Virus record (IMG/VR): IMGVR_UViG_3300030012_003880
Span: 1-22,238 of that record
Source of the DNA: a virus
Length of the DNA: 22,238 nucleotides
Direction: 5' to 3' (one strand)
Shown here: piece by piece, positions 1 through 21,468 of the stretch
Position numbering within the stretch: position 1 is the first letter of the stretch
Layout of the letters: each line of letters starts with the position of its first letter
Notes under the pieces: generated by a model
What the model was told of the DNA's origin: nothing
Database searches by the model: none
What the model saw: only the letters and a program-made list of their open reading frames with translations
Position numbers and translations under genes: made by a program

Positions 1-2
1 CG

Positions 3-107
3 GACCATCCCAACTATGCTGCATGTCAAATGGCATGGCTCGATGCCAACACCGACTATACCCTGGAAGAGTTTTGCGATAAGCACTGCGAGGATAGATC
101 GTGGTAA
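3..107 (+). CDS. C-terminal end of an upstream phage gene (partial)
   Basis: An open frame enters from the left edge and ends at a TAA at 105-107. The visible 34 residues are hydrophilic and rich in acidic residues and cysteine, ending in CEDRSW. The helicase GTG at 101 overlaps its last codons, which is the tight packing seen throughout this operon and supports the frame being real. The rest lies outside the window, so no function can be given. Confidence 0.6.
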   Translation, partial: DHPNYAACQMAWLDANTDYTLEEFCDKHCEDRSW

Positions 108-1393
108 GCCAACGGTGGGAAACTATACCTGTCACTCCAGAGCACACCGTCTTGGCTATGTGCTGGAAATACCCAGAGAGGGCATGGCCTTTAGCCAGTG
201 AGCATCTGAACAGCGATAGCTTCGCAGACACGCACTGCAGGATTCTGTGGGATGCAATGACAAGCTGCGTCAGGCATCATGAGCCTATCGACATAGTTAG
301 TGTCGGCATGAGAATACCAGAGCCCGTATTCCGGTCGATGGGTGGACCGCAGCAAGTTTGGCAATGGTTCCAGCATAACACTTTGCCGTGGATTCAGGAG
401 TCTTTTGAGCATCACTTAGGTAAGGTCGTGCAGGCAGCAAACAAACGTCGCTGTCAGGTCGCGCTGCAGCAAGCAATGCGGACCTTGGAAAAGGACGAAG
501 ATGGCTGCATATCCCAGGTGCAAAGCATTGTTGCAGACGCCACGATGGAGTCTGTCAAAACGGGCCTAGTGCCATACCAGAAGATTGTTGCTGACACCGC
601 CGCTCGGCTGGAGGACATGGCAAAGGCCGGCAGACCACCGGCAATACCGCTAGGCATACGTTCATTCGACGAGCGATTTGCTTTGGTGCCAACTGAGCCC
701 GACCTTGTGATTATCGCTGGGCGACCTGGATGGGGCAAGTCTGCCCTGAAGCAGCAGATTGCAGAGGCGCACGCTAAGGACGGGCCTACGCTTATGTTTG
801 AGCTTGAGATGGGCGCGCAGCAGTCGTGCCTTCGGATGGAAGCAGAACGGGCTCGGCTAGCTGTTGGCTTTGAAAGAAAACAGGATGTATCTCTGGTTCA
901 CGCTCAAAAGTTAGCACGGTCTGTCGGCTTTGCCGAGACTCTGCAGCTGTGGATGGATGATACTCCGAACCAGACTATCGAGTCGGTGACAGCGGCGGCG
1001 CTGGCCCATCAGATGAAGCACGGCAGGCTTAGTGCCGTGTTTGTAGATTACATCGGCCTTATGAGACAGACAGACCGTCGATGGGACCGACGACGGCATA
1101 TCGGACACGTCAGCCGCAATGCGAAGCTGCTGGCTAAGAAGCTGGGATGCCCAGTGTATCTCTTGAGCCAGATGAATCGAGGCATTGAAGGCGTGGAGCG
1201 ACCACCGCGACTGTCCGATTTACGTGAGTCTGGCGACTTGGAGCAAGACGCCGACACCGTGATATTTCCCTACCGACCAAACCCCGATGACCCGGAGTGT
1301 CAGATAATCGTAGGTAAGTATCGACATGGACCGCCTGGTTCGGTAAAAGTCGTGTGGGTGGGGCACTTTACGCGGTTTAAAGATGCAATTTGA
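101..1393 (+). CDS. dnaB: DnaB-type replicative helicase
   Basis: 430-aa RecA-fold hexameric helicase that would unwind phage DNA at the fork on the lagging strand. Seen: an N-terminal DnaB-like helical domain (about residues 10-75, with the EPIDIVSV signature of primase-interacting domains), Walker A GRPGWGKS at 207-214, Walker B VFVDYIGL around D316, the LLSQMNRGIE motif at 354-363, the SDLRESGDLEQDAD motif at 372-385, and a C-terminal KYRHGPPG turn near 406-413 where the arginine finger of the family lies. Start is GTG at 101, seven bases after a GAGG, overlapping the upstream stop. It is slightly shorter than bacterial DnaB, as usual for phage versions. No separate primase gene is visible. 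It leads the replication-recombination operon and overlaps rusA. Confidence 0.93.
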   Translation: MVSQRWETIPVTPEHTVLAMCWKYPERAWPLASEHLNSDSFADTHCRILWDAMTSCVRHHEPIDIVSVGMRIPEPVFRSMGGPQQVWQWFQHNTLPWIQESFEHHLGKVVQAANKRRCQVALQQAMRTLEKDEDGCISQVQSIVADATMESVKTGLVPYQKIVADTAARLEDMAKAGRPPAIPLGIRSFDERFALVPTEPDLVIIAGRPGWGKSALKQQIAEAHAKDGPTLMFELEMGAQQSCLRMEAERARLAVGFERKQDVSLVHAQKLARSVGFAETLQLWMDDTPNQTIESVTAAALAHQMKHGRLSAVFVDYIGLMRQTDRRWDRRRHIGHVSRNAKLLAKKLGCPVYLLSQMNRGIEGVERPPRLSDLRESGDLEQDADTVIFPYRPNPDDPECQIIVGKYRHGPPGSVKVVWVGHFTRFKDAI

Positions 1394-1811
1394 GTTCACA
1401 GTTCCTGGGGAGCCGGTCGCAAAGCAGCGACCAAAGGCTCGCATGGTACGCATAGGTGGTGGTCGCATGACCGTGAAGATGCGGACGCCGAAAAAAACAC
1501 TCGACTACGAGGCCAAGGTGGCGGAGTCGTGTGCTGACATCCCGCGCTTTGAGCCCGGACCCATCCGCGTAGCGGTGGTGTTTGTTTTTGAGCGACCAAA
1601 GCGGTTGATGCGTAAGAAAGACCCGCAGGGCAGGGTCTGGAAGACTACCCGCAGCGACGTAGACAACTGTTTGAAGTCGTTGTTGGATGGCATGGCCGGT
1701 CTGTGGGCAGATGACGCTGTGGTCTGCGATGTGCGAGCAGAGAAATACTATGCCGCGAAAGGTGAAGAGCCGCACGCTGCGGTGATGATCGAGGCTATCA
1801 ATGAAGGCTGA
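1383..1811 (+). CDS. rusA: RusA-family Holliday junction resolvase
   Basis: 142-aa endonuclease of the RusA family, which cuts four-way DNA junctions as a dimer. Seen: the N-terminal FTVPGEPVAKQRPK start typical of the family (residues 5-18) and the acidic metal-binding cluster SDVDN (D92, D94) followed by a lysine (K98) and WADDAVV (D110/D111). These match the Asp-Asp-Lys-Asp arrangement known as catalytic in E. coli RusA. Length is close to the family norm (about 120-140 aa). The ATG overlaps the end of dnaB by 11 bases and the gene runs into the next one by 11 bases, so translation is probably coupled. In context it would resolve branched DNA made by RecT annealing and replication before packaging. 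Confidence 0.92.
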   Translation: MQFEFTVPGEPVAKQRPKARMVRIGGGRMTVKMRTPKKTLDYEAKVAESCADIPRFEPGPIRVAVVFVFERPKRLMRKKDPQGRVWKTTRSDVDNCLKSLLDGMAGLWADDAVVCDVRAEKYYAAKGEEPHAAVMIEAINEG

Positions 1812-2055
1812 GCTGGACCCAGAGTCCATCCAGTGGATAGCCGTGTCGCTGAACGACCTGATATGGATTTGTGTACACGACAGCCTTTACAACCACCTAC
1901 GAAGCGAGGGGCTCGAACCTACGTATCCGAACAGTCGTTCTTTTGTGATGCCGATATGGCGAGCCTTTGACTTGCTGGCTGGCCGAGATGATTACGACTG
2001 TCGAGCGAGGGTTCAACTGTACGGTCCACACACACTAGAGATGGATGAGCTTTGA
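1801..2055 (+). CDS. Hypothetical protein, 84 aa
   Basis: Not recognised. It is an acidic, tryptophan-containing small protein without obvious membrane segment or zinc motif. The ATG at 1801 has GAGG about six bases upstream, inside the end of rusA, and its TGA overlaps the TTG start of the next gene. This tight embedding supports it being translated. Its 3' end carries a CACACAC-TAGAG tract (2026-2040) that serves as the leader of the following gene. A role in DNA metabolism is only suggested by its neighbours. Confidence 0.7.
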   Translation: MKAELDPESIQWIAVSLNDLIWICVHDSLYNHLRSEGLEPTYPNSRSFVMPIWRAFDLLAGRDDYDCRARVQLYGPHTLEMDEL

Positions 2056-2432
2056 AATGCGGCCAGTGCCCAAAGGCACAGCGCAAGGGCGCCTGGTTCG
2101 ACCTGTTGCATAGAAAGCTGTATGTATGTGATATTACAGGGGAAACAATGAAAGAAGACGACGACTGCATTGTCGAAAAGCCAAGCCACTATGTGCCAGA
2201 AGAAGGCGTCGAGTGCATTGATTACTTGCGCCAGGTGCTTACTCCCCAGGAGTTTCTGGGCTACTGCCGTGGCAACGTCATCAAGTATCAACATAGAGCT
2301 AATTTGAAGGGAACGCCTGGTCTGGACCTCAAAAAGTCGGCAAATTATGCTTTATTGGCAGCAGGTTATGACTTTCGTAAAGACTTGGTAAAAAACAGCA
2401 AAAAAAATGGTACCGTCGAGAAAACAACATAA
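2052..2432 (+). CDS. DUF3310 family protein (nucleotide kinase-like annotation)
   Basis: 126-aa member of the phage DUF3310 family, often labelled nucleotide kinase without experimental proof. Seen: the family signature KPSHYVPEEGVECIDYL (about 42-58), then FLGYCRGNVIKYQHRANLKG and a DLKKSANYALLAAGYD helix. Two starts are possible. TTG at 2052 overlaps the previous stop and adds a 32-residue head with a CxxC pair and further cysteines that could bind zinc. ATG at 2148 has a good AGGGGA Shine-Dalgarno and gives only the core domain. The long form is chosen because the frame is open and the cysteine pattern looks protein-like, but both products may be made. It sits between an unknown gene and the recombination exonuclease. 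Confidence 0.8.
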   Translation: MKCGQCPKAQRKGAWFDLLHRKLYVCDITGETMKEDDDCIVEKPSHYVPEEGVECIDYLRQVLTPQEFLGYCRGNVIKYQHRANLKGTPGLDLKKSANYALLAAGYDFRKDLVKNSKKNGTVEKTT

Positions 2433-2438
2433 AGTTTT

Positions 2439-2465
2439 GCCGCACGTCGCGGCCACACACTGGAG
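2439..2465 (+). promoter_or_regulatory. Hairpin plus CACACAC-TGGAG leader of the exonuclease gene
   Basis: A perfect five-base-pair stem, GCCGC (2439-2443) with GCGGC (2449-2453) and loop ACGTC, is followed directly by CACACAC and then the GGAG Shine-Dalgarno. It fills the short gap between two genes. The same hairpin, CA tract and GGAG order recurs on the other strand at 12523-12557, 13110-13144 and 13362-13388. Confidence 0.6.
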
Positions 2466-2474
2466 ACTAGACAT

Positions 2475-3491
2475 ATGAAATCAGATGCTCTTGCGACACC
2501 TGCTTTGGGTGGCCGCGCTCGTGTAGTTACATTCGAAAGCAGAGACGAGTGGCTCAAAAGTCGCGTAAATTACGTGGGCGGCAGCGAAATTGGCGCAGTT
2601 GTACACCGCCAGGATGACGAGTGGCCTGCGACTGGCGTTCAGCCCGGTGGATATGATAGCCCTTTGGATATCTACCTAAAGAAAGTAAGCCCTGATGACC
2701 AGGCAGAGCAGGATTCGGAGTCAGAAGCCAGAATGTGGCTGGGCCGTGAGCTTGAGTCTGCCGTTATTGACTTGGTGAACAAGCGATGGGGCATGGGGTT
2801 TGAAGGTACTCAACTAATTACCTGCTATGACCCAGAAAACGAGGCGTTTGGATGTACGCTCGACGGCTGGTCGCCAAAGTTAGATGCCAACCTTGAGGTC
2901 AAAACCACAGGCAACAAGTGGAAATACCCGAGGCCAACCGATGACATTCACGAGATAATGACCGTTACTGGCGAAGATGTAGCCAGCGGAAAGTTTCCCA
3001 GAAACACCTATTGGCAGGTGCAATGGGGGATGTCTATTACTGGTCGTAAGAAGTGTTACGTTGCCGTTCTTGGCGGTGGCAGCGGTGGCCTGGAGCTAAA
3101 CCTGTACCTTGTTCGTAGAGATGACGCAGACATCTCGCATGCTCGCAAGACCGTGGGCACCTTTTGGTCGTACCATGTAAAGGGCAAACTGCCTCCGGCT
3201 CCGCAGTTGTCGCACGACTACCGAACAGCTCAGGAGCAGTGGCCTAACGATGGTGGTGAGCTTCATTGCCCACATCAAGTAGTGCCTACAATGCTGAAGG
3301 CGTTGCGTTTTTATGACTATTGGTCAAAACTGGCCGATGGGCACAAGGCTCAACGAGATTTGACCAAGGCGCTGGTTCGATTCTACGGACGCGGGAAGGC
3401 GCTGCGTATTGTTGACCCGGACACAGGCTCGACGTGGCTGGCTACATTCCAGAAAAACAATGCATTGAAGGTTAGGGAGATAAAGGTATGA
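2475..3491 (+). CDS. YqaJ-type recombination exonuclease
   Basis: 338-aa nuclease of the YqaJ / lambda-exonuclease superfamily, which would resect double-stranded ends 5' to 3' to give single strands for RecT. Seen: GGSEIGAVV (35-43) at the start of the fold, LGRELESAV (89-97), catalytic TLDGW with D130, LEVKTTG with E141 and K143, and YWQVQWGMSITGRKKCYVAV (179-198) with the conserved glutamines. The C-terminal 120 residues form a helical tail. ATG 2475 follows GGAG at 2462-2465. It is two genes upstream of recT, the usual exonuclease-annealase pairing. It is distinct from the RecE and lambda Exo types by sequence style. Confidence 0.92.
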   Translation: MKSDALATPALGGRARVVTFESRDEWLKSRVNYVGGSEIGAVVHRQDDEWPATGVQPGGYDSPLDIYLKKVSPDDQAEQDSESEARMWLGRELESAVIDLVNKRWGMGFEGTQLITCYDPENEAFGCTLDGWSPKLDANLEVKTTGNKWKYPRPTDDIHEIMTVTGEDVASGKFPRNTYWQVQWGMSITGRKKCYVAVLGGGSGGLELNLYLVRRDDADISHARKTVGTFWSYHVKGKLPPAPQLSHDYRTAQEQWPNDGGELHCPHQVVPTMLKALRFYDYWSKLADGHKAQRDLTKALVRFYGRGKALRIVDPDTGSTWLATFQKNNALKVREIKV

Positions 3492-3706
3492 CCATGCCTT
3501 GGTGGAGAGGTGGGCCAGAGCAACAAGTTCAACTGGTCGAAGACCAGGACGGCTTTGGCTTGGTCGTCCAGAATGGTGAGGATAGCGTCAGGGTGGCGCT
3601 ACAGATGGTCGAGCTAGTCTTTTTAGGAGACGCACTGGGCGTCATAAAAGACAGATGGATAAACACACACATGGAGGACATCGAGTATGAGTTCGCTGAC
3701 AACTAA
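3488..3706 (+). CDS. Hypothetical protein, 72 aa
   Basis: Not recognised. It is a small acidic protein with a run of alternating hydrophobic residues (residues 14-55) that could form a compact beta/alpha fold. It starts at ATG 3488 in a four-base ATGA overlap with the exonuclease stop, and an in-frame ATG lies two codons on. Its 3' end overlaps the recT start by 20 bases. The position between exonuclease and annealase, with coupling on both sides, suggests a partner of the recombination pair, but that is inference from position only. Confidence 0.72.
   Translation: MTMPWWRGGPEQQVQLVEDQDGFGLVVQNGEDSVRVALQMVELVFLGDALGVIKDRWINTHMEDIEYEFADN
3664..3677 (+). promoter_or_regulatory. CACACAC-ATGGAGG translation leader of recT
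   Basis: A CA-dinucleotide tract directly followed by GGAGG, nine bases before the recT ATG at 3687. It lies inside the coding end of the preceding gene. It is the rightward version of the leader motif seen before many leftward genes. Confidence 0.6.
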
Positions 3707-4436
3707 AGTAAACCCGGTCGCAGCATTGCAAAACCGGGATGCGTACAGCGCAATCGAGGCGATGAAAGGCCAGCTTATGGCCGCTTTGCCCACACATTTA
3801 GCTCAAAACCGCGACCGGTACGCACGCATCCTTGTCACTACGCTGCGCAGGACGCCGAAGCTCATGCAGTGCGACCCGCTTTCGCTGCTTGGTTCGATCA
3901 TGCAGTCAGCGCAGCTCGGTCTGGAGCCGGGGACTGGCCAAGTACACCTCGTTCCGTTCAAAAACCAGGTGCAGATGATTATCGGCTACGAGGGGCTCAT
4001 CGAGTTAGCTCGTCGCGCTGGCGTGGTCATCCATCCACCTCGGATTGTGCGCGAGGGAGACACGTTTGACGTGGACTTTGGAAATATAAAGAACCCAGTC
4101 GTCCATAAGCCAGCGATGAATGACGCGCCGATGACTCATGTGTGGTGTGCGGCTGTCATCAAGGACATGGACCCCATCGTAGAGGTCATGAGCAAGGCCC
4201 AGTGCTTGGCAGTCATGCGCTCAACGCAGTCAAAGGGGAAGTACGGCCCATGGAAAGACCATTTTGAGTCTATGTGTGGCAAGACGTGCATCCGGCGGCT
4301 TGCTAAGTATCTGCCCAAGAATGCAGAGATGCTGATAGCAGAGAAGGTAGACGGACACACGCTGGCCATAGAGGACGTGATGTCAGAGCCAGTTGTGGAG
4401 TGGGACGGGACAGTGGAGGAAGCGACAGATGAATAA
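3687..4436 (+). CDS. recT: RecT single-strand annealing protein
   Basis: 249-aa RecT-family annealase. It would coat single-stranded DNA made by the YqaJ exonuclease and anneal it to complementary strands in phage recombination. Seen: the family block from about residue 41 to 112, including RILVTTLRRTPKLMQCDPLSL, GSIMQSAQLGLEPGTGQVHLVPF and IIGYEGLIELARRAG. Downstream are the KGPW-type segment (YGPWKDHFESM) and the KTCIRRLAKYLP helix. Length is close to the usual 250-300 aa. Start ATG 3687 has a strong GGAGG. The ssb ATG lies eight bases inside its 3' end, so the two are coupled. Confidence 0.95.
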   Translation: MSSLTTKVNPVAALQNRDAYSAIEAMKGQLMAALPTHLAQNRDRYARILVTTLRRTPKLMQCDPLSLLGSIMQSAQLGLEPGTGQVHLVPFKNQVQMIIGYEGLIELARRAGVVIHPPRIVREGDTFDVDFGNIKNPVVHKPAMNDAPMTHVWCAAVIKDMDPIVEVMSKAQCLAVMRSTQSKGKYGPWKDHFESMCGKTCIRRLAKYLPKNAEMLIAEKVDGHTLAIEDVMSEPVVEWDGTVEEATDE

Positions 4437-4821
4437 GAACATAGCGTTGTTGGCGGGTCGCATCGGCTCAGACCCAGATGTGAAAGAGACGGCGGGCGGT
4501 AAGCTTGTAAGCTTTAGTTTGGCGACATCCGAGACCTGGAAAGCCAAGGATGGCACCAAGCAAGAGAAAACCCAGTGGCACCGCTGCAAGGCGTGGGGTC
4601 GCACCGCCGACTTTATTGCAGAGCGCATGTCAAAGGGCGCGGGCGTGTTCGTCGAGGGTACTATCGAGTACGGCGAGTACACTACCAAGGACGGCGAGGT
4701 GAAGAAGACCACTGACATCAAGGTACACCGTCTCGACGTATGGAAGTGGCCAGAGACCGCAGGCGCACGCCCTGCACAGGCGCACAAGGCCAAGTACGCT
4801 GATGACGACATTCCTTTCTAA
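4429..4821 (+). CDS. ssb: Single-stranded DNA-binding protein
   Basis: 130-aa OB-fold SSB that would protect single strands and recruit partners. Seen: N-terminal NKNIALLAGRIGSDPDVK, the aromatic DNA-binding stretch around WHRCKAWGRTADF, VFVEGTIEYGEYTTKDGEV, and an acidic tip DDDIPF at the very C terminus, the known docking tail for host and phage DNA enzymes. The linker before the tip is short. Start ATG 4429 is chosen over an in-frame upstream codon at 4393 because GGAGGA lies nine bases before it and family proteins begin MNK. It overlaps recT and abuts the next gene (TAATG). Confidence 0.95.
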   Translation: MNKNIALLAGRIGSDPDVKETAGGKLVSFSLATSETWKAKDGTKQEKTQWHRCKAWGRTADFIAERMSKGAGVFVEGTIEYGEYTTKDGEVKKTTDIKVHRLDVWKWPETAGARPAQAHKAKYADDDIPF

Positions 4822-5642
4822 TGAATGCTAACAAGGAAGCAAAAGAGCTGCTTGGGATGTCCCCCGAGGGGCTCGAAGAGTACATTGCTGACGAGTTGTC
4901 GGCTATCGACACCACCGGGGACCGCAAGCGAAGTGCCTACTTGGGCATGGCGCTGCGCGTCCTCCGTGAAATACGTGGCGGCGGGGTCAGGGACGCCAAG
5001 GAGCTGGCCACGGCCTTCTCTAAGGTGGCCTCTGACCTCATTGAAAGGGCGGCGCCGCTTACCCAGAGCCAAGAGGTCGAGGTCGAAGAGTCTTTTTGGC
5101 AGTCTATTGCTGGCGACGTGTCGCACAAGCAGCCTAGCGCAGAAAATCACACCTTTTTAGGCGGTGTCGAGCAACGCGCTAAGAATCTGGAGCTGGACCC
5201 TGTTAGCCGAGAGGTCGAGGTAAACGAAAAAGCCAAGGAACTGGCTCGCCAGGTGCTCAAAGAGGTACCCAAAGAGGCAAGAAAGGCGGCAGAAAAAAGA
5301 AAATATAGGGAAAATGTGAGGTCCGTACCGTTTCGCAGAGAAAAAGAGCGCGTTGAAAAGGCCAGGAAGTACTTTCAGCTTCGTGTTGATGGCATAGGCC
5401 GCGAAGATGCCGCCGCTATGGTCAAAATAAACCGCACTACGGCCAGAAAGTACGACACAAATGGTCCAGAGGGCCTGAAAGTGCAGGCTAAGTATGCAGA
5501 GCATGAGAATCCAAAGCTCAGAATACAGCCGATAGTGATTAGCGGCTGGCCTACGGCTGATGTCGTTGAAAGGCTGCAAATGGACAGCATCAAGCTGGAG
5601 CGGAAGATTCGAGCCCAAGAAAAACTGAAGCTGAACCAATAA
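4821..5642 (+). CDS. Charged protein with a helix-turn-helix-like segment
   Basis: 273 aa, not recognised. The N-terminal 80 residues are helical. The middle (about 130-185) is highly charged, Lys/Arg/Glu-rich and probably coiled coil. Residues about 190-212 (GIGREDAAAMVKINRTTARKY) read like a helix-turn-helix in which the second helix carries TTARKY. It starts at ATG 4821 sharing a base with the ssb stop, with no strong Shine-Dalgarno, so it probably depends on coupling. As the last gene of the early operon it could be a DNA-binding factor for recombination, an antiterminator or a transcriptional regulator. None of these is proved by the sequence. Confidence 0.75.
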   Translation: MNANKEAKELLGMSPEGLEEYIADELSAIDTTGDRKRSAYLGMALRVLREIRGGGVRDAKELATAFSKVASDLIERAAPLTQSQEVEVEESFWQSIAGDVSHKQPSAENHTFLGGVEQRAKNLELDPVSREVEVNEKAKELARQVLKEVPKEARKAAEKRKYRENVRSVPFRREKERVEKARKYFQLRVDGIGREDAAAMVKINRTTARKYDTNGPEGLKVQAKYAEHENPKLRIQPIVISGWPTADVVERLQMDSIKLERKIRAQEKLKLNQ

Positions 5643-13352: not shown

Positions 13353-13361
13353 TTTTTTTCT

Positions 13362-13388
13362 CTCCGTGTGTGTGTCGCTCTTTCGAGC
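13362..13388 (-). promoter_or_regulatory. GAAA-loop hairpin plus CACACACAC-GGAG leader
   Basis: Read leftward, GCTC-GAAA-GAGC (13377-13388), then GA, a CA tract and GGAG (13362-13365). It sits at the 5' end of the P5 transcript, close to the predicted start near 13390. Confidence 0.55.
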
Positions 13389-13396
13389 TTGGGGCG

Positions 13397-13433
13397 ATGA
13401 TACTCATCCCACGGCCCCCGTCAAGTGACTTTA
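13397..13433 (-). promoter_or_regulatory. Leftward promoter P5 with palindromic -35/operator
   Basis: Read leftward: TAAAGTCACTTGA (13421-13433), -35 TTGACG (13419-13424), 16-base spacer, -10 TATCAT (13397-13402), the best -10 of the five. The A-run 13434-13440 upstream could act as an UP element. Drives 13352 and 12843-13100. Confidence 0.68.
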
Positions 13434-13819
13434 TAAAAAAAGATTCTAAATGTCTGTTTTTTCTGTGCCGTCTTGCGGTTTTGACCGTGGCTATGGTGGA
13501 TTACCGGGCAAATGTGGGTGGGATGGGGTGGAGTGTTTGCGTCCCATCTCCGACCCATGGGTGTGTGATAGGGGATGGGGGCACCTAGCTCAAGGCCTTC
13601 AGTACACACACCGTCCGTTGTCTGTGTCCGGTATTGGCTATTGTAGGACACACCCCCACGCAGACCCCCGGTGCCGCACTCATTTGTTCGTATGCTCCGG
13701 GCGCGCTCACGGTCTACGCGCGTACGTACACACGCGCGAGCGCAGAGGGGGGGGTGACCTTCGAGTCGATCGCAGGGTACCCATAGTATCAGGCGGATGC
13801 CGCCCCTCCGCTACAAAAT
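13434..13819. other. Gene-free region with inverted repeats and G-runs
   Basis: No convincing gene on either strand. Contents: a G-run cluster on the plus strand (GGG, GGG, GGGG at 13516-13528 and GGGG, GGGGG at 13571-13581), an inverted repeat TGTGTCC/GGACACA (13623-13629, 13646-13652), an alternating purine-pyrimidine stretch with hairpin CGCGCGT/ACGCGCG (13717-13723, 13732-13738), a G8 run (13747-13754), AGGGTACCCATA (13774-13785) and a hairpin GGCGG-ATG-CCGCC (13792-13804). Such density fits a replication origin, a regulatory site or a structured RNA; which one cannot be told by eye. Confidence 0.5.
13774..13785. repeat. AGGGTACCCATA repeat, copy 1
   Basis: Exact 12-base copy of 14672-14683 with palindromic core GGGTACCC. 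The two copies flank the three-gene leftward mini-operon. Confidence 0.5.
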
Positions 13820-14026
13820 CTAGGCTTGAGAACTTTGCTGCCGCCCAGCGATAACGTCAGCATATGTCACCTTGTCATAAGGCTTGGCCAACTTAGCGAG
13901 CGCCTGTTGTGTAGCCGTCATGGGTTTTTTGGCTGAATAGCCTTTACCCTTTTTTGGCTTTGGTGGTCGCTTTGGGGACTTTTTTCCTGGCTTTGGTCTT
14001 GGCATTGGCTTTGATTTTCCGCCCAT
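13820..14026 (-). CDS. Lys/Pro-rich basic protein, 68 aa
   Basis: The N-terminal half is extremely basic and proline-rich (KSKPMPRPKPGKKSPKRPPK), followed by a helical tail with YDKVTYADVIAGRQQ. It looks like a nucleic-acid-coating or condensing peptide, though no family is recognised. ATG 14026 has AGGAG seven bases upstream; the longer frame to 14128 is not used. The first 83 bases overlap the 3' end of the next gene in another frame, where that protein also becomes Lys-rich. Could be a DNA-binding or virion-associated peptide. Confidence 0.65.
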   Translation of the reverse strand: MGGKSKPMPRPKPGKKSPKRPPKPKKGKGYSAKKPMTATQQALAKLAKPYDKVTYADVIAGRQQSSQA

Positions 14027-14225
14027 CTCTAATCTCCTGGATTGCAGTAAGTAGTAAGTCAGCCTGATCATCACGAAGTGTAGCGACCATGCTGGATTCA
14101 GACCCATAGGTGCCAAATGGCTCGCCATGCAATACCAGTCGAACGGACCTCTGGCCTATGGGGTACACGATGACCTCGGTAAAGTTGACGTCATCAGTGA
14201 CCATGCGAAGCGTTGGTATATTCAT
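13944..14225 (-). CDS. Hypothetical protein with Lys-rich tail, 93 aa
   Basis: Not recognised. Residues 1-65 look like a small alpha/beta fold (VNFTEVIVYPIGQRSVRLVL, LRDDQADLLLTAIQEIRDG), then a tail AKTKARKKVPKATTKAKKG of basic residues that could contact DNA. ATG 14225 overlaps the upstream TGA as ATGA. The tail-coding DNA also encodes the start of the Lys/Pro-rich neighbour in a second frame. Confidence 0.7.
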   Translation of the reverse strand: MNIPTLRMVTDDVNFTEVIVYPIGQRSVRLVLHGEPFGTYGSESSMVATLRDDQADLLLTAIQEIRDGRKIKANAKTKARKKVPKATTKAKKG

Positions 14226-14512
14226 CGTACGATGATTGCCTCTATATGTTCGGGTTGGTCGTGATCTGCATCTTTTAGCTGCACTGGCTCTTGTACCACG
14301 ACTGCGGATCTGTAGTCCCCGTTGGGCATTTGCACCAAAACGGGCAGCCAGGGGTCTTTCATCAGGAAAGTCGCCAGCTCACAAGACACAAGCTGTGACT
14401 CCAGGTCTTTTTGGCTAATAGACATGCGATGGATATTGGTCCAATTCATCATCATTGGCAAGAACCGCGCAAAACCCCGCACGTAATTTATACACTTTGT
14501 GGGTAAATACAC
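14222..14512 (-). CDS. Hypothetical protein, 96 aa
   Basis: Not recognised. The core from SISQKDLESQLVSCEL to the end has WLPVLVQMPNGDYRSAVVVQ and an acidic C-terminal region, a compact alpha/beta look. The GTG at 14512 has AAGG a few bases upstream; internal ATGs (about 14425-14455) lack clear Shine-Dalgarno sites, so the start is uncertain. First gene of a three-gene leftward set coupled by ATGA and overlap. Confidence 0.62.
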   Translation of the reverse strand: MYLPTKCINYVRGFARFLPMMMNWTNIHRMSISQKDLESQLVSCELATFLMKDPWLPVLVQMPNGDYRSAVVVQEPVQLKDADHDQPEHIEAIIVR

Positions 14513-14527
14513 GGATGGCCTTGCGGA

Positions 14528-14554
14528 CCGGGGTTTGTGCGTTTTAAAACCCGG
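14528..14554. repeat. Imperfect hairpin CCGGGGTTT / AAAACCCGG
   Basis: Stem of nine with one mismatch (14528-14536 with 14546-14554). It lies in the gap between leftward and rightward gene sets. A second hairpin with one bulge (GAG-CCGT/ACGG-CTC, about 14599-14617) lies nearby. Both may form a divergent control or transcript-start structure. Confidence 0.35.
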
Positions 14555-14671
14555 AGGGTGATTGGAATGGAGGGGGGTTCTCAGGGGGGAGGAAACGAGG
14601 GAGGCCGTTTCACGGCTCCTTGCGTATCATATTTTTGGCCTTCTGTAAATATGGGGTGCCTGTTTTTCTGA

Positions 14672-14699
14672 AGGGTACCCATATTGGGGGCAATATACT
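14672..14699 (+). promoter_or_regulatory. AGGGTACCCATA repeat copy 2 with a TATACT -10-like box
   Basis: AGGGTACCCATA (14672-14683) ends ten bases before TATACT (14694-14699), at about the place of a -35 element, while no good -35 box is present. This would suit an activator-dependent rightward promoter for the gene beginning near 14703. Inference from spacing only. Confidence 0.35.
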
Positions 14700-15620: not shown

Positions 15621-16202
15621 ATGCCAAAACCCGCTGAAGATACCAAAAACGCACCATTTACTGCCTCTCGACCTTCGCCGCCCAGGATGGCTGAAGGTGG
15701 TTCACCGTGGCCTATAGCCCTTGATTCGGCTTTGCAGCGAGAACTGACCAACCTGATGAGGGCAACTGGTCTTAAAAGCAGCCGGCCTATCATGGATTTT
15801 GTTGGCGAGTTGCTTGTTTCTTGGTGGGAGCCGCAAATCCCTAGTGATGCTTACAGCCTTTCCAAGGCAGAGCGGCAAGACACGGTTACTCTTAGCAATG
15901 GAAACGGTCTATATAGCCACGATATGAGCTGGCATGTATACTGCCGCTTGGATAAAATTGCTAAAGCGATAGGCACAACGCCGTCTGCGATGGTTTTAAT
16001 TGCCATGCATACTAATCGCATCCGCACTTTCTTGAGGGCAATACCCCCATCTCGGACCACTGCGCGCATGAGCGGCATCCGAAACTCAATAGTTGCTACC
16101 ATGGATGCCATTGATGACGCCGAGATTGCCCGTGAACAGAAGGCAGCAAAGAAGAAGGTAAGTCGCAAGAAAGCGAAAACGGCAACCCCTGCCACTGCAT
16201 GA
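15621..16202 (+). CDS. Candidate terminase small subunit
   Basis: 193 aa, no family recognised directly. Two segments (about 33-70 and 102-138) look like short DNA-binding helical units with an RHH/HTH feel (LDSALQRELTNLMRATGL; HVYCRLDKIAKAIGTTPSAM), and the tail (from about 170) is Lys-rich (KKKVSRKKAK). It ends in a four-base ATGA overlap with the large terminase, which is the usual place and coupling for TerS. TerS recognises the packaging site and hands DNA to TerL. The start ATG 15621 lacks a strong Shine-Dalgarno; an ATG at residue 23 is an alternative. The TerS role is inference from context and composition. Confidence 0.6.
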   Translation: MPKPAEDTKNAPFTASRPSPPRMAEGGSPWPIALDSALQRELTNLMRATGLKSSRPIMDFVGELLVSWWEPQIPSDAYSLSKAERQDTVTLSNGNGLYSHDMSWHVYCRLDKIAKAIGTTPSAMVLIAMHTNRIRTFLRAIPPSRTTARMSGIRNSIVATMDAIDDAEIAREQKAAKKKVSRKKAKTATPATA

Positions 16203-18079
16203 GCCGTCGTGGCGACATATGGCTGGCTCTAAGCAAAGACCCCTATCTGTTTTTCAAGCGTTGCCTGAAGATTCGCGTCAAAACTGACAACGGAATCGAG
16301 ATGCTGCCGTTTGAGCCAAACAATGAGCAGCGTGCTGTAATAGATTGGGTGCTGCACTGCATCGAAAACAAGAAGCCGGTCCGGGTGATTATCAACAAAT
16401 GTCGCCGTCTCGGCATGTCTACAGCCATCGAGGCCATTGGTTACTGGCTGTGTACCTTCAATCCAAACCTGTTTGCACTGGTAATAGCCCAGCTAGACCA
16501 GGCCACGAGGGAGATTGCAGGCATTGCGCGTAACTTTAAGAATAACTTAGACCCTCAGTTTGCGCGAATGTTTCCACATTCATTGCCGAAGAGCCGTGGT
16601 AACACGCTTGAGTGGTCATCCGATGTTGAGGGCGTGACCTGGGGCTCAAAGTTTCGCAGCATCACACAGGGCTCAACAGAAGCAAACCGGGGTGGCGACC
16701 CCTCATTTATACATATATCGGAGCTTGCAGCATGGGACCATTTACGGCGCTCGACTACTGCCGAGGCGCAGCTTACATCAACGCTGGCCTCTATGTTATC
16801 GGAATCATTTACATTTGTTCTAATTGAGTCTACAGCGAAAGGCGCAAGCGGCAGCCACTACAATCGTTTCAAGTCTGCGTGGCGAGATTGGACGGAAAGC
16901 CAGGACCACGCCATCTGGAGACCTTTTTTCTTTAGTTGGCAAGGAGTCCCCAAGTATACCACAGGCATCAGCGAAGACGAAGCAAGATTGCATGACGAGA
17001 TGCTGGCTCTGTGGGAGCAGGGTGATGTCTTGCGCTCTACCAGCAAAAGCAAAAAAGAGAACACGTTTCACAACAAAGCTCGTCTTATTGCTAAAGATGA
17101 ACTGCGGTACTGGCACCGCACAGATGGGTGGGCGTGGTTTGACAGGTGTTTCGAGTACGGCCTTACTCCTAGTGAAATGCGGTGGGGGTTGAATAAACGC
17201 CAAGAATTCGGTGACTTAGACGAGTTTGACCAAGAGTTTCCGTTGTCTTGGCAGATGTCGTTTATTGCCTCCGGCTCAAGAGCCATTGACCAGCGGGTCA
17301 TATCAGAGTGGGCATCTAAGCCGTTGCCCGATGGGTTCAGACAGTTCAGAGAGTTTATTGACGTGGACGGCGATATACAGCCTGGTGGCACTGGTCTTGA
17401 GTGGCAGATGTACAGGAAGCCGGTACCGGGCCATGAATACATCATTGGAACGGACTCTGCGATGGGCTCAAAGGACGGTGACTGGTCAGCAGCACGGGTT
17501 TACGACCGACACGCCAAAGAGATAGTAGCAGAACTCTACTCTAAGTACTCTCCAGAGTTTCTTGGGGAGCAGGCTGTTCTGGCTGCGAAGTATTATAACA
17601 GGGCGTTTATCTCACCAGAGGCTAACAATCACGGCTATTCAACCATCAGCCACATTGTAAATACTATGGGATATCGCCAAATGCAGTTGCGACGTCCCGG
17701 CAAGGCAATACGTCCCGGCAAAGATGCCTCGCAGATATATGGCACAATCATTGGCTCCTATAATAAGGCCAGGATTATTGATGAGCTGCGTCGAAGAATA
17801 CGAGACAAGGCATACACCGAGCACTCTCGACGCTTCTGCCATGAGTGTACCACGTATGTTCGCACTCAATCTGGCCGCTATGACCACATGCCAGGGGAGC
17901 ATGATGACCTGATTGACTGCACGGCTCTTATATTTGAAGCGGACAATAGAATGCGGCCTGTGTTAGAAGTGTCAGATAATTTGACTAAAGCTAAAGAGAT
18001 GGACGACATTGCATCACGCGGCGGTCGCAGGCGAGGTGTTCGTCCTCAGAAGCGATTCTACCGTGGAGGTGGCCGATGA
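16199..18079 (+). CDS. terL: Terminase large subunit (ATPase and nuclease)
   Basis: 626 aa. DNA packaging motor: the ATPase domain threads DNA into the prohead and the nuclease domain cuts it. Seen: Walker A-like NKCRRLGMST (66-75, the CRR-x-GMST style of terminases), Walker B SFIHISE with E175 as catalytic carboxylate, coupling-type segment LIESTAKG (208-215), then the RNase H-like nuclease with GTDSAMG (D419), SPEANNHG (E474) and HDDLIDC (D569/D570, D573). The C-terminal tail is Arg/Gly-rich. Length is normal for the family. The start overlaps the candidate TerS by ATGA, and the end overlaps the next gene the same way. Confidence 0.94.
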   Translation: MSRRGDIWLALSKDPYLFFKRCLKIRVKTDNGIEMLPFEPNNEQRAVIDWVLHCIENKKPVRVIINKCRRLGMSTAIEAIGYWLCTFNPNLFALVIAQLDQATREIAGIARNFKNNLDPQFARMFPHSLPKSRGNTLEWSSDVEGVTWGSKFRSITQGSTEANRGGDPSFIHISELAAWDHLRRSTTAEAQLTSTLASMLSESFTFVLIESTAKGASGSHYNRFKSAWRDWTESQDHAIWRPFFFSWQGVPKYTTGISEDEARLHDEMLALWEQGDVLRSTSKSKKENTFHNKARLIAKDELRYWHRTDGWAWFDRCFEYGLTPSEMRWGLNKRQEFGDLDEFDQEFPLSWQMSFIASGSRAIDQRVISEWASKPLPDGFRQFREFIDVDGDIQPGGTGLEWQMYRKPVPGHEYIIGTDSAMGSKDGDWSAARVYDRHAKEIVAELYSKYSPEFLGEQAVLAAKYYNRAFISPEANNHGYSTISHIVNTMGYRQMQLRRPGKAIRPGKDASQIYGTIIGSYNKARIIDELRRRIRDKAYTEHSRRFCHECTTYVRTQSGRYDHMPGEHDDLIDCTALIFEADNRMRPVLEVSDNLTKAKEMDDIASRGGRRRGVRPQKRFYRGGGR

Positions 18080-19251: not shown

Positions 19252-21468
19252 ATGCCATCCTCTGCAATAACTGACCAGTATACTCGGTTCGACAGTCAAA
19301 GTGGCGAAAGCTGGTCTCCCACTGCGGAGGAGGTCAAGCTTGTAAACTACGTCACTAAGCAGTTCGAGCTGTGTGAGCGGTTTAAGAAGCCTCATGTGCG
19401 TTCTGCGTACTACACCATTTCGTTTTATCTGGGCCAGCAGTGGCTCCGGTATGACCGTGCGTCTGAGACGCACGACTCTATAAAGTTTGAAGAGTGGGAA
19501 GAGCAGCCAGTCACCAACTACATGAAGCGGGTGATTGACGATGTAACTGCTAAGGTTACTGAAAACCGCCCTGCTGTGACTGTAGTTCCTGCTACATCTG
19601 ATGAGGATGACCAGGAGGCAGCTCGTGCAAGCGAGAAGCTACTTGACCACCTGTGGATGGAGTTGGACTTTGGGGATGGAATTGAAGAGGCAGTAAAGCT
19701 GGCTACGCTTACCGGCCTGTCCGCCATCAAGGTGTATTGGGATGCCGCAGGCGGCGAACAGTACCAGCCAACTCAAACGGAGATGGAGGTCGGCGCAGAG
19801 GTCGAAGGCGCTATTGGCGACCTTGGCCCACGCATGACAGGCATTCCTGACTGGGATGTGCTGTCTCTCATGGAGTTTGGTTTTGATCCAGGTGCGCGGC
19901 GTTGGTCGAAATGTCGCTGGGCATACAGCCGAAACACTGTTCACATCGATGTACTGCGACAGACTTACGAGAAAGCAAAGTATATCAAAAGCAATCGCCG
20001 TATGGACTTTGACCACTTTCAAGTCCAGCTAATGGATAAGCTGCGAGGCGACCGACAAAACAGCGCACAGAGCCTTACTGAGCACGTTGAGGTAATCGAG
20101 TATTACGAGCGCCCCTCGCCTCGGCACCCTAACGGCATGTTTTCTGTTATTGCCGGTGGGCTGGTTATGTACCACCAGGAGCGCCTGCCATTCGGTAAGC
20201 TGCCATTCTATCCCATACGGGATGGCAAGATACCCGGACGCATGATTGGACATGGGCGAGCAGTGTCTCTGCTAGACCCGCAGCACGAAGTAAACAAACG
20301 CGACAAGGACATTCGCGAGCACGCTAACCTGATGGCTCAGGCCAAGTGGATTGTGGCCGAGGGCTCGCTCAAGAATGGCAACTACATCAGCAATGAGCCC
20401 GGTGAGATTGTAGAGTATAACCCAGGATTCCCGGCTCCACGACCAATGGTAAACCCGCCGCTTCCCCAAGAGCACTTAGTCATCAAGAATGGCGCGGTCG
20501 AGACAATATTTGAGCTATCTGGGCTGTCCTCGCTTACTCGTGGTCGCATCCCGTCAAATATGTCTGGTCGTGCAATCGGAATGGCGACAGACCTTGAGGC
20601 AACTTTGCTAGGGCCGTTGGTCAAAGAGGTCGAGAAGGCTATCTGTGGCGTTGGCTCCATGCTGCTCACGATGTGGCGAGACATGATGCCCGTTGCCTAT
20701 ACCGTTCCAGTGATGGGCAAGAACTCGGTCAGCGAACTGATACGGTTCTTTTCAAGCGACATTTCCTCTACGGATGTTCGAATGCAGGGCGGCTCCATGC
20801 TGCCGAAGCTGCTGTCGTTCCGCCAGGAGCGTTTGCTGATGATGTGGGAGCGTGGTGTATTCGGCAATCCCCAAGACCCAATGAACCAAATCAAGTTCCG
20901 GAAGATGCTTGAGTTTGGCGATACGGACGTTATTGACGGAGACAACAGCCGTGAGCGCAGATACGCACGCGAAGTCAACGAGATGCTGAAGGTTGGTGCC
21001 TTCGTACATCCTAACCCAGCTATTGACTCTATGGAGATACAGATAGACGAGCGGACTGATTACATGCAGTCAGCCGAGTACCGCCGCCTTGCTCCAGAGA
21101 TACAGAATATGTTTATGCGCAATCTGGCGTGGTGCTACTACTACGCTTCGCAATCTCAGCAGGGCGTGCCTTGGTGGACTCACGTAGATGAAGACGCGAT
21201 ACAGGTTGAAGCGTGGCCTCCATTTATGCAGGAGCCACCACTTCAGGAAGGTCAGCCGGGTCAGCCGCAGATGGCCCAGCCTGAACCTATGGACGCATTT
21301 GGCATGCCTCCAGAGGCAGGTCCGCAGATGCCGCCAGAGCTTATGGAGCAGATGGCCGCATTGTCTCGTGGCAACACTGGGACTCAAATTGCCATACCCG
21401 AAGAGGATGCTGGAGTAATGGGTCCAGGAGTTGGCGAGTTTGACATGGTGCCCACCGAAGAGATGTAA
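19252..21468 (+). CDS. Portal protein
   Basis: 738 aa. It would form the dodecameric ring at one head vertex through which DNA enters and leaves and on which scaffold and tail assemble. Seen: N-terminal KPHVRSAYYTISFYLGQQWLRYD and NYMKRVIDDVTAKVTENRPAVTVVPA (roughly 50-125), typical of podovirus-style portals, mid-protein clip/wing block (HVEVIEYYERP, FGKLPFYPIRDGKIPGRMIG), the DIREHANLMAQAKWIVAEGS helix, the FELSGLSSLTRGRIPSNMSG tunnel-type segment, and a Gln/Pro/Met-rich acidic C-terminal tail. Size close to P22 portal (725 aa). Start ATG 19252 has AAGGA upstream. The name is by family style; no tail gene is in view to confirm morphology. Confidence 0.88.
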   Translation: MPSSAITDQYTRFDSQSGESWSPTAEEVKLVNYVTKQFELCERFKKPHVRSAYYTISFYLGQQWLRYDRASETHDSIKFEEWEEQPVTNYMKRVIDDVTAKVTENRPAVTVVPATSDEDDQEAARASEKLLDHLWMELDFGDGIEEAVKLATLTGLSAIKVYWDAAGGEQYQPTQTEMEVGAEVEGAIGDLGPRMTGIPDWDVLSLMEFGFDPGARRWSKCRWAYSRNTVHIDVLRQTYEKAKYIKSNRRMDFDHFQVQLMDKLRGDRQNSAQSLTEHVEVIEYYERPSPRHPNGMFSVIAGGLVMYHQERLPFGKLPFYPIRDGKIPGRMIGHGRAVSLLDPQHEVNKRDKDIREHANLMAQAKWIVAEGSLKNGNYISNEPGEIVEYNPGFPAPRPMVNPPLPQEHLVIKNGAVETIFELSGLSSLTRGRIPSNMSGRAIGMATDLEATLLGPLVKEVEKAICGVGSMLLTMWRDMMPVAYTVPVMGKNSVSELIRFFSSDISSTDVRMQGGSMLPKLLSFRQERLLMMWERGVFGNPQDPMNQIKFRKMLEFGDTDVIDGDNSRERRYAREVNEMLKVGAFVHPNPAIDSMEIQIDERTDYMQSAEYRRLAPEIQNMFMRNLAWCYYYASQSQQGVPWWTHVDEDAIQVEAWPPFMQEPPLQEGQPGQPQMAQPEPMDAFGMPPEAGPQMPPELMEQMAALSRGNTGTQIAIPEEDAGVMGPGVGEFDMVPTEEM

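Follow-up and report, generated by a model that had tools for sequence, protein, structure and literature searches.

Paired non-coding elements upstream of a phage late operon: a candidate packaging or genome-end site

Introduction

The three nearest named portal relatives that we examined, Microbacterium phage Shocker (23.5% identity) and Arthrobacter phages Jasmine (21.2%) and Adat (20.7%), have direct repeats at the ends of their records, with lengths of 484, 1330, and 1551 bases, respectively. One or two leftward genes fall within each repeat, and rightward genes begin within 70 bases of it; the terminase (viewed in Adat and Shocker) and the portal lie further along. In Jasmine and Adat, the repeat includes a gene for an Lsr2-like nucleoid protein. 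The edges of these repeats had no significant common motif, with 98/500 shuffles matching the observed likeness for Jasmine, 114/500 for Adat, and 482/500 for Shocker. To our knowledge, little is understood of how a terminase selects the two edges of a terminal repeat.

The Jasmine length also appears in print, in an excerpt of PMC5513430, and repeats of about 190 bases are given for the group of phage SU10 in an excerpt of PMC9965538. Four phages related through their terminase, PTXU04, Bas95, 1.232.O, and CRP-7, had no end repeat in the end stretches compared, each of at least 3 kb, a comparison limited by the deposition of Bas95 as circular and of 1.232.O as partial. The excerpt of the CRP-7 paper has no mention of a terminal repeat (PMC6918029).

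Here, we describe a pair of non-coding elements, A and B, in a virus record and its relatives, and compare their layout with these systems.

Genome content and relatives of the window

The stretch of DNA analyzed, hereafter the window, is a virus record of 22,238 bases. The phage encodes a DnaB-type helicase, a YqaJ-type nuclease and RecT (both within 2475–4436), and a tyrosine integrase; coordinates of the other features are collected in Table 1. A megablast search of the window against 50,697 phage records gave no match. Viral contigs supplied the relatives. The comparison covers five lineages, namely the window and four relatives of 47–50 kb, G001 (L002), G002 (L005), G003 (L010), and G004 (L006/L030). 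We also used G005, which is nearly identical to G002, and the fragments L003, L008, and L009.

The G002 capsid matches the SU10 family. The window terminase and those of Adat and Shocker have only the same broad PHROG in common (phrog_2): BLAST found no significant similarity between them, and neither did a profile comparison with Adat. No relative of the terminase profile was found in the PDB at E 0.1. A small-terminase candidate had no relative among phages at E 0.01, and its predicted structure, with a mean pLDDT of 41, was set aside.

Table 1. Positions of the elements, motifs, and genes discussed, in window coordinates
Feature	Position	Strand	Remarks
M1, near-palindromic dyad GTCC-N16-GGAC	13626..13649	.	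once per record in G001–G005
Alternating purine-pyrimidine tract, Z-DNA-like, 24 nt	13715..13738	.	not conserved
M2, G8TGACCTTCGA, GGGGGGGGTGACCTTCGA	13747..13764	+	conserved in window, G001, G002, G003, G004; start of element A
M3 copy in element A, GGGTACCCAT	13775..13784	.	10 bases after M2
M4, CGCTACAAAATCT	13809..13821	.	present in five lineages, in G002 with one altered base
Element A core (M2 + M3 + M4)	13747..13821		
Leftward small genes of the A–B segment	13820..14512	-	13820–14128, 13944–14225, 14222–14512
Element B, non-coding partner	14561..14692	.	126–132/132 bases identical in G001, G002, G003, G004, L008
Shared marks in B	14653..14682	+	GGGGTGCCT at 14653–14661; GGGTACCCAT at 14673–14682
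A–B segment, predicted direct terminal repeat	13747..14692	.	place and make-up as in Shocker, Adat, and Jasmine repeats
Terminase large subunit	16199..18079	+	phrog_2, E 9.5e-19
Portal protein, P22/SU10 type	19252..21468	+	PF16510 and PF23899

Conserved motifs in a gene-free region

A first-pass annotation had described 13434–13819 as a gene-free region selected for DNA or RNA structure, and had proposed a replication origin, a pac site, or a non-coding RNA. As far as we tested it, the region is indeed gene-free. The longest frame (13450–13854, plus strand, 134 aa) had no PHROG match at E 0.01, and the frames of 134, 72, and 76 aa were kept as protein in 0/4 relatives by tblastn; their significant matches were partial, falling in G002 left of 13540 and in the part from M2 to M4 that is conserved as DNA.

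Most of 13434–13746 was unalignable across the five lineages, with the exception of a stretch against G002 (13357–13531, 80% identity). Four motifs, M1 to M4, persist in the window and in all four relatives. The selection that had been suggested is thereby supported at the level of DNA sequence; the hairpins and the alternating tract are not the conserved features. Among the features that had been stressed, comparison of the sequences singles out the G8 run as the conserved one. It occupies 13747–13754, is the only G8/C8 run in the window, and is moderately beyond chance (a run this long arises in 44/1000 dinucleotide shuffles of the region). Across the window, which is a genome fragment, and G001–G004, all G8/C8 runs (8/8) lie at M2 or up to 108 bases to its left. 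The alternating tract is real and was reached by 0/1000 shuffles, but it was not seen at the same place in the three aligned relatives (G001, G002, and G003). Inverted repeats of 5–7 bp are likewise present at no more than the chance level of dinucleotide shuffles: nine with an arm of 5 (that number is reached by 65/1000 shuffles), two with an arm of 6 (295/1000), and one with an arm of 7 (197/1000). The clusters of G runs amount to 10 runs of three or more, which 511/1000 shuffles also reach. The annotation was right about selection on DNA and in listing packaging, and misjudged most of the relevant features; the conserved element also passes the right limit it had set, ending at 13821, and has its partner at 14561–14692.

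The GC-rich sequence and its predicted pairings would suit a structured non-coding RNA made from the region. We consider this highly improbable, as no Rfam family matched the window at its gathering score (one match, at E 0.09, was far below the cut-off) and none of six folds was unusual, with z from -1.7 to +0.7; the proposal thus found neither a known family nor a fold steadier than shuffles.

M1 matched once per record in 5/10 records searched, G001–G005, which are those of the group that reach the site, and its reversed control pattern matched once, in G002. A dyad of about 24–30 bp with a variable center could be the attP of the phage integrase. However, the integrases of the window and G002 are 97% identical and their M1 agrees at only 18/24 bases, while that of G001 is 50% identical and its M1 agrees at 22/24 (hand counts), and the integrase gene is 7 kb away. 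As M1 does not vary together with the integrase, we rejected this assignment as extremely unlikely.

The core of M2 had one match in each of G001–G005 and in the unrelated records G009 and G010 (7/10 records); fragments G006–G008 had no A element. M2 and M3 are 10 bases apart in all five lineages, and the letters between them vary. M3 at A is exact in the window, G001, and G002, one base off in G004, and two bases off in G003. With G004 held out, columns invariant in the other four lineages agreed in 23/27 cases and variable columns in 5/18 (Fisher p 1.5e-4); this test was confined to the first 45 columns because one more base precedes M4 in G004. G004 keeps M4 beside its remaining gene, with the adjoining gene missing. 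Since tblastn finds neither 13820–14128 nor 14222–14512 in G004, and M4 is nevertheless kept, coding does not explain the conservation of M4.

M2 also marks a sharp step in homology, which by blastn starts at 13745 with G001, 13746 with G002/G005, and 13747 with G003. To the right of M2, G001 has 95% identity; in its 1.28 kb to the left there was no blastn match, and only M1 was recognizable by eye. G004 gave no blastn match near the step.

The M2 pattern was found in 12 stretches of viral contigs. The full layout was present in five, from five contigs of this group, and the other seven were judged by their flanks alone. A pattern of M2 and M3 also occurred in three bacterial genome contigs and in L059, where the other marks were absent by eye. 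In L019 and L024, outside the group and near a match to GGGGGGGTGGCCTTCGA, a common ATATCATACATTAGGGAG stretch lies ~40–60 bases before an M2-like motif and is possibly an independent site.

Element B and the marks it shares with element A

The identity of element B over its 132 bases is complete in G001 (132), followed by G002 (127) and by G003, G004, and L008 (126 each); L003 begins inside the element, and all of the 105/132 bases present are identical. In the two most diverged comparisons, B exceeds nearby genes in conservation: among overlapping 132-base windows from 14700 on, those as conserved or more numbered 3/508 in G004 and 0/220 in L008. In closer comparisons the same test did not make B outstanding (G003, 53/632; G002, 179/644; G001, 136/632; L003, 113/528). 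B contains two G6 runs. Its right end is a cassette boundary, with inserts in G002, G004, and L008, and in G004 and L008 the final bases of B are found again where the inserted cassette has its edge. Beyond the group, L072 matches the core of B, with no similarity around the match. When A and B were searched against phage records, three and four records were returned, with best E values of 8 and 0.8, and no likeness was found.

A and B flank ~0.9 kb of leftward genes and lie upstream of the late operon. By tblastn, all three leftward genes match in G001, G002, and G003, and only 13944–14225 matches in G004. The first of them, 13820–14128, encodes a short Lys/Pro-rich basic protein. The distance from M3 to M3 is 898 bases in the window, 886 in G001, 902 in G002, 909 in G003, and 472 in G004.

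Two marks, GGGGTGnCCT and AGGGTACCCATA, are common to A and B in the same orientation. Copy number is low: in the window, G001, and G002, GGGTACCCAT is confined to A and B, in G003 and G004 it is confined to B, and GGGGTGnCCT has one additional copy in G002 and one in G004. The longest exact match between A and B was reached by few shuffles of the B stretch in the window (1/200), G001 (2/200), and G002 (0/200), and was no better than shuffles in G003 (22/200) and G004 (123/200). A leftward mini-frame on the minus strand, beginning MGTL, runs from M3 at A in the window, G001, and G002, and also at B (by hand); no ribosome-binding site was seen by eye.

Paired sites for a regulator are the strongest rival to a packaging function. 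A and B would then be operators or phage-specific promoters controlling the leftward regulon as well as the genes at 13820–14512, which also run leftward. Both do stand upstream of leftward genes and have a palindrome in common, M1 has the dyad form to which a dimer binds, and in the window B is placed between diverging genes. We nonetheless regard this as unlikely: the shared mark has only two copies per genome where counted, A and B are at unequal distances from the next leftward gene, and the sole promoter-like site near A (13397–13424) is at chance level (one site, compared with 1.6 on average in shuffles).

A candidate packaging and genome-end site

Among the first proposals, position and comparison favor a packaging site, widened here to a genome-end or packaging site. 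That the locus is such a site, of whatever kind, seems to us about an even prospect. More narrowly, and with latitude on the form, we tentatively assign element A as a site of the packaging enzyme at one chromosome end and element B as the other edge of the ~0.9-kb segment, a reading that we hold at somewhat below even. The form with a terminal repeat is possible, if doubtful. A and B were proposed as its edges because the segment resembles the repeats of the portal relatives in content and location, and because G002 has an SU10-type capsid. Counting against this form are the four terminase relatives that lack an end repeat in the stretches compared, which lowered our estimate of it and of paired edge marks, the absence of significant BLAST similarity to the terminases of Adat and Shocker, the known repeats whose edges have no significant common motif, the A–B match at shuffle level in G003 and G004, and the additional GGGGTGnCCT copies in G002 and G004. 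As would be looked for at a terminal-repeat edge, a fixed site near the terminase operon is kept in the relatives.

In the proposed sequence of events, the terminase would recognize the GGGGTGnCCT and palindromic marks common to A and B and would cut concatemers at both elements. Each end of the virion DNA would then carry the A–B segment, which would form a direct terminal repeat, and the YqaJ-type nuclease together with RecT could afterwards close the circle. The reader of the marks, the cutting at both sites, and the repeat are all predicted steps; the records themselves have their ends at other places. It is rather unlikely, in our estimate, that the palindrome and GGGGTGnCCT define both repeat edges for one terminase across a temperate podovirus group. 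If they do, paired edge marks would set this group apart from the three terminal repeats checked above. A narrow literature search found no report of poly-G tracts at terminal-repeat cleavage.

The closest parallels are Jasmine, Adat, and Shocker, in which a segment of leftward genes is likewise followed by a rightward block with terminase and portal; their repeats are seen in the records, whereas that of the window is predicted. All three phages infect actinobacteria. Kuravirus-like phages (phiEco32 and SU10) resemble the group in the SU10-type capsid of G002 and in a portal match, and differ in that the predicted A–B repeat is longer than theirs. The cos site of lambda also precedes terminase genes and packs several parts into a compact site, but the window has a second site 0.9 kb away. 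The locus would be a known kind of element, with a paired layout of A and B.

A single cos or pac site, either A alone or B alone, would give one cut or packaging start without a terminal repeat, and is the next rival after a regulator. In its favor, the elements are compact, low in copy, and upstream of the terminase genes, and the four terminase relatives have no end repeat in their records. We consider it quite unlikely, since one site would not need two elements with common marks, and since the resemblance between M2 and the lambda end is unremarkable and no cosN-like site was recognized. As a candidate lambda cosN, M2 had looked striking, with 10/12 bases in agreement, and was rejected: the window has 31 sites at up to three mismatches against a shuffle mean of 20, and three at two mismatches. 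The M2 of G002 is not among the matches of that genome at up to two mismatches, and G003 and G004 each have closer matches elsewhere.

If the packaging reading is true, an unannotated gap can be named as an end of the viral chromosome, and virion DNA would not be needed to orient such genomes or to predict their mode of packaging. The paired marks, kept in five lineages, would in that case supply short, testable terminase substrates.

Replication genes and GC skew

A replication origin had been the remaining proposal for the region, and cumulative GC skew had been suggested as a check. Run on the four relatives, it placed the minimum within 419 bases of M2 in 4/4, as an origin would; skew, however, tracks gene direction here, which confounds the result. 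The gene for the initiator or helicase loader, with an internal tandem array, lies elsewhere in 4/4 relatives, either ~13 kb left of the site in circular coordinates or on an inverted segment. Iterons beside or inside the initiator gene, a mark of origins, were absent from the region and found in the initiator gene of 4/4 relatives. Because this iteron-like array lies elsewhere and the skew minimum is confounded, an origin at the region is disfavored and very unlikely.

Tandem 12-nt repeats of the CAGTAACAGTAG type at L041:3020–3055, inside the replication-initiator gene of G002, are a candidate origin, and matching arrays are present in G001, G003, and G004. In G003 (L047–L049), the replication/recombination block, which matches window 1–5057, has the opposite orientation to that in the window and in the other relatives, and the maximum of GC skew travels with the inversion.
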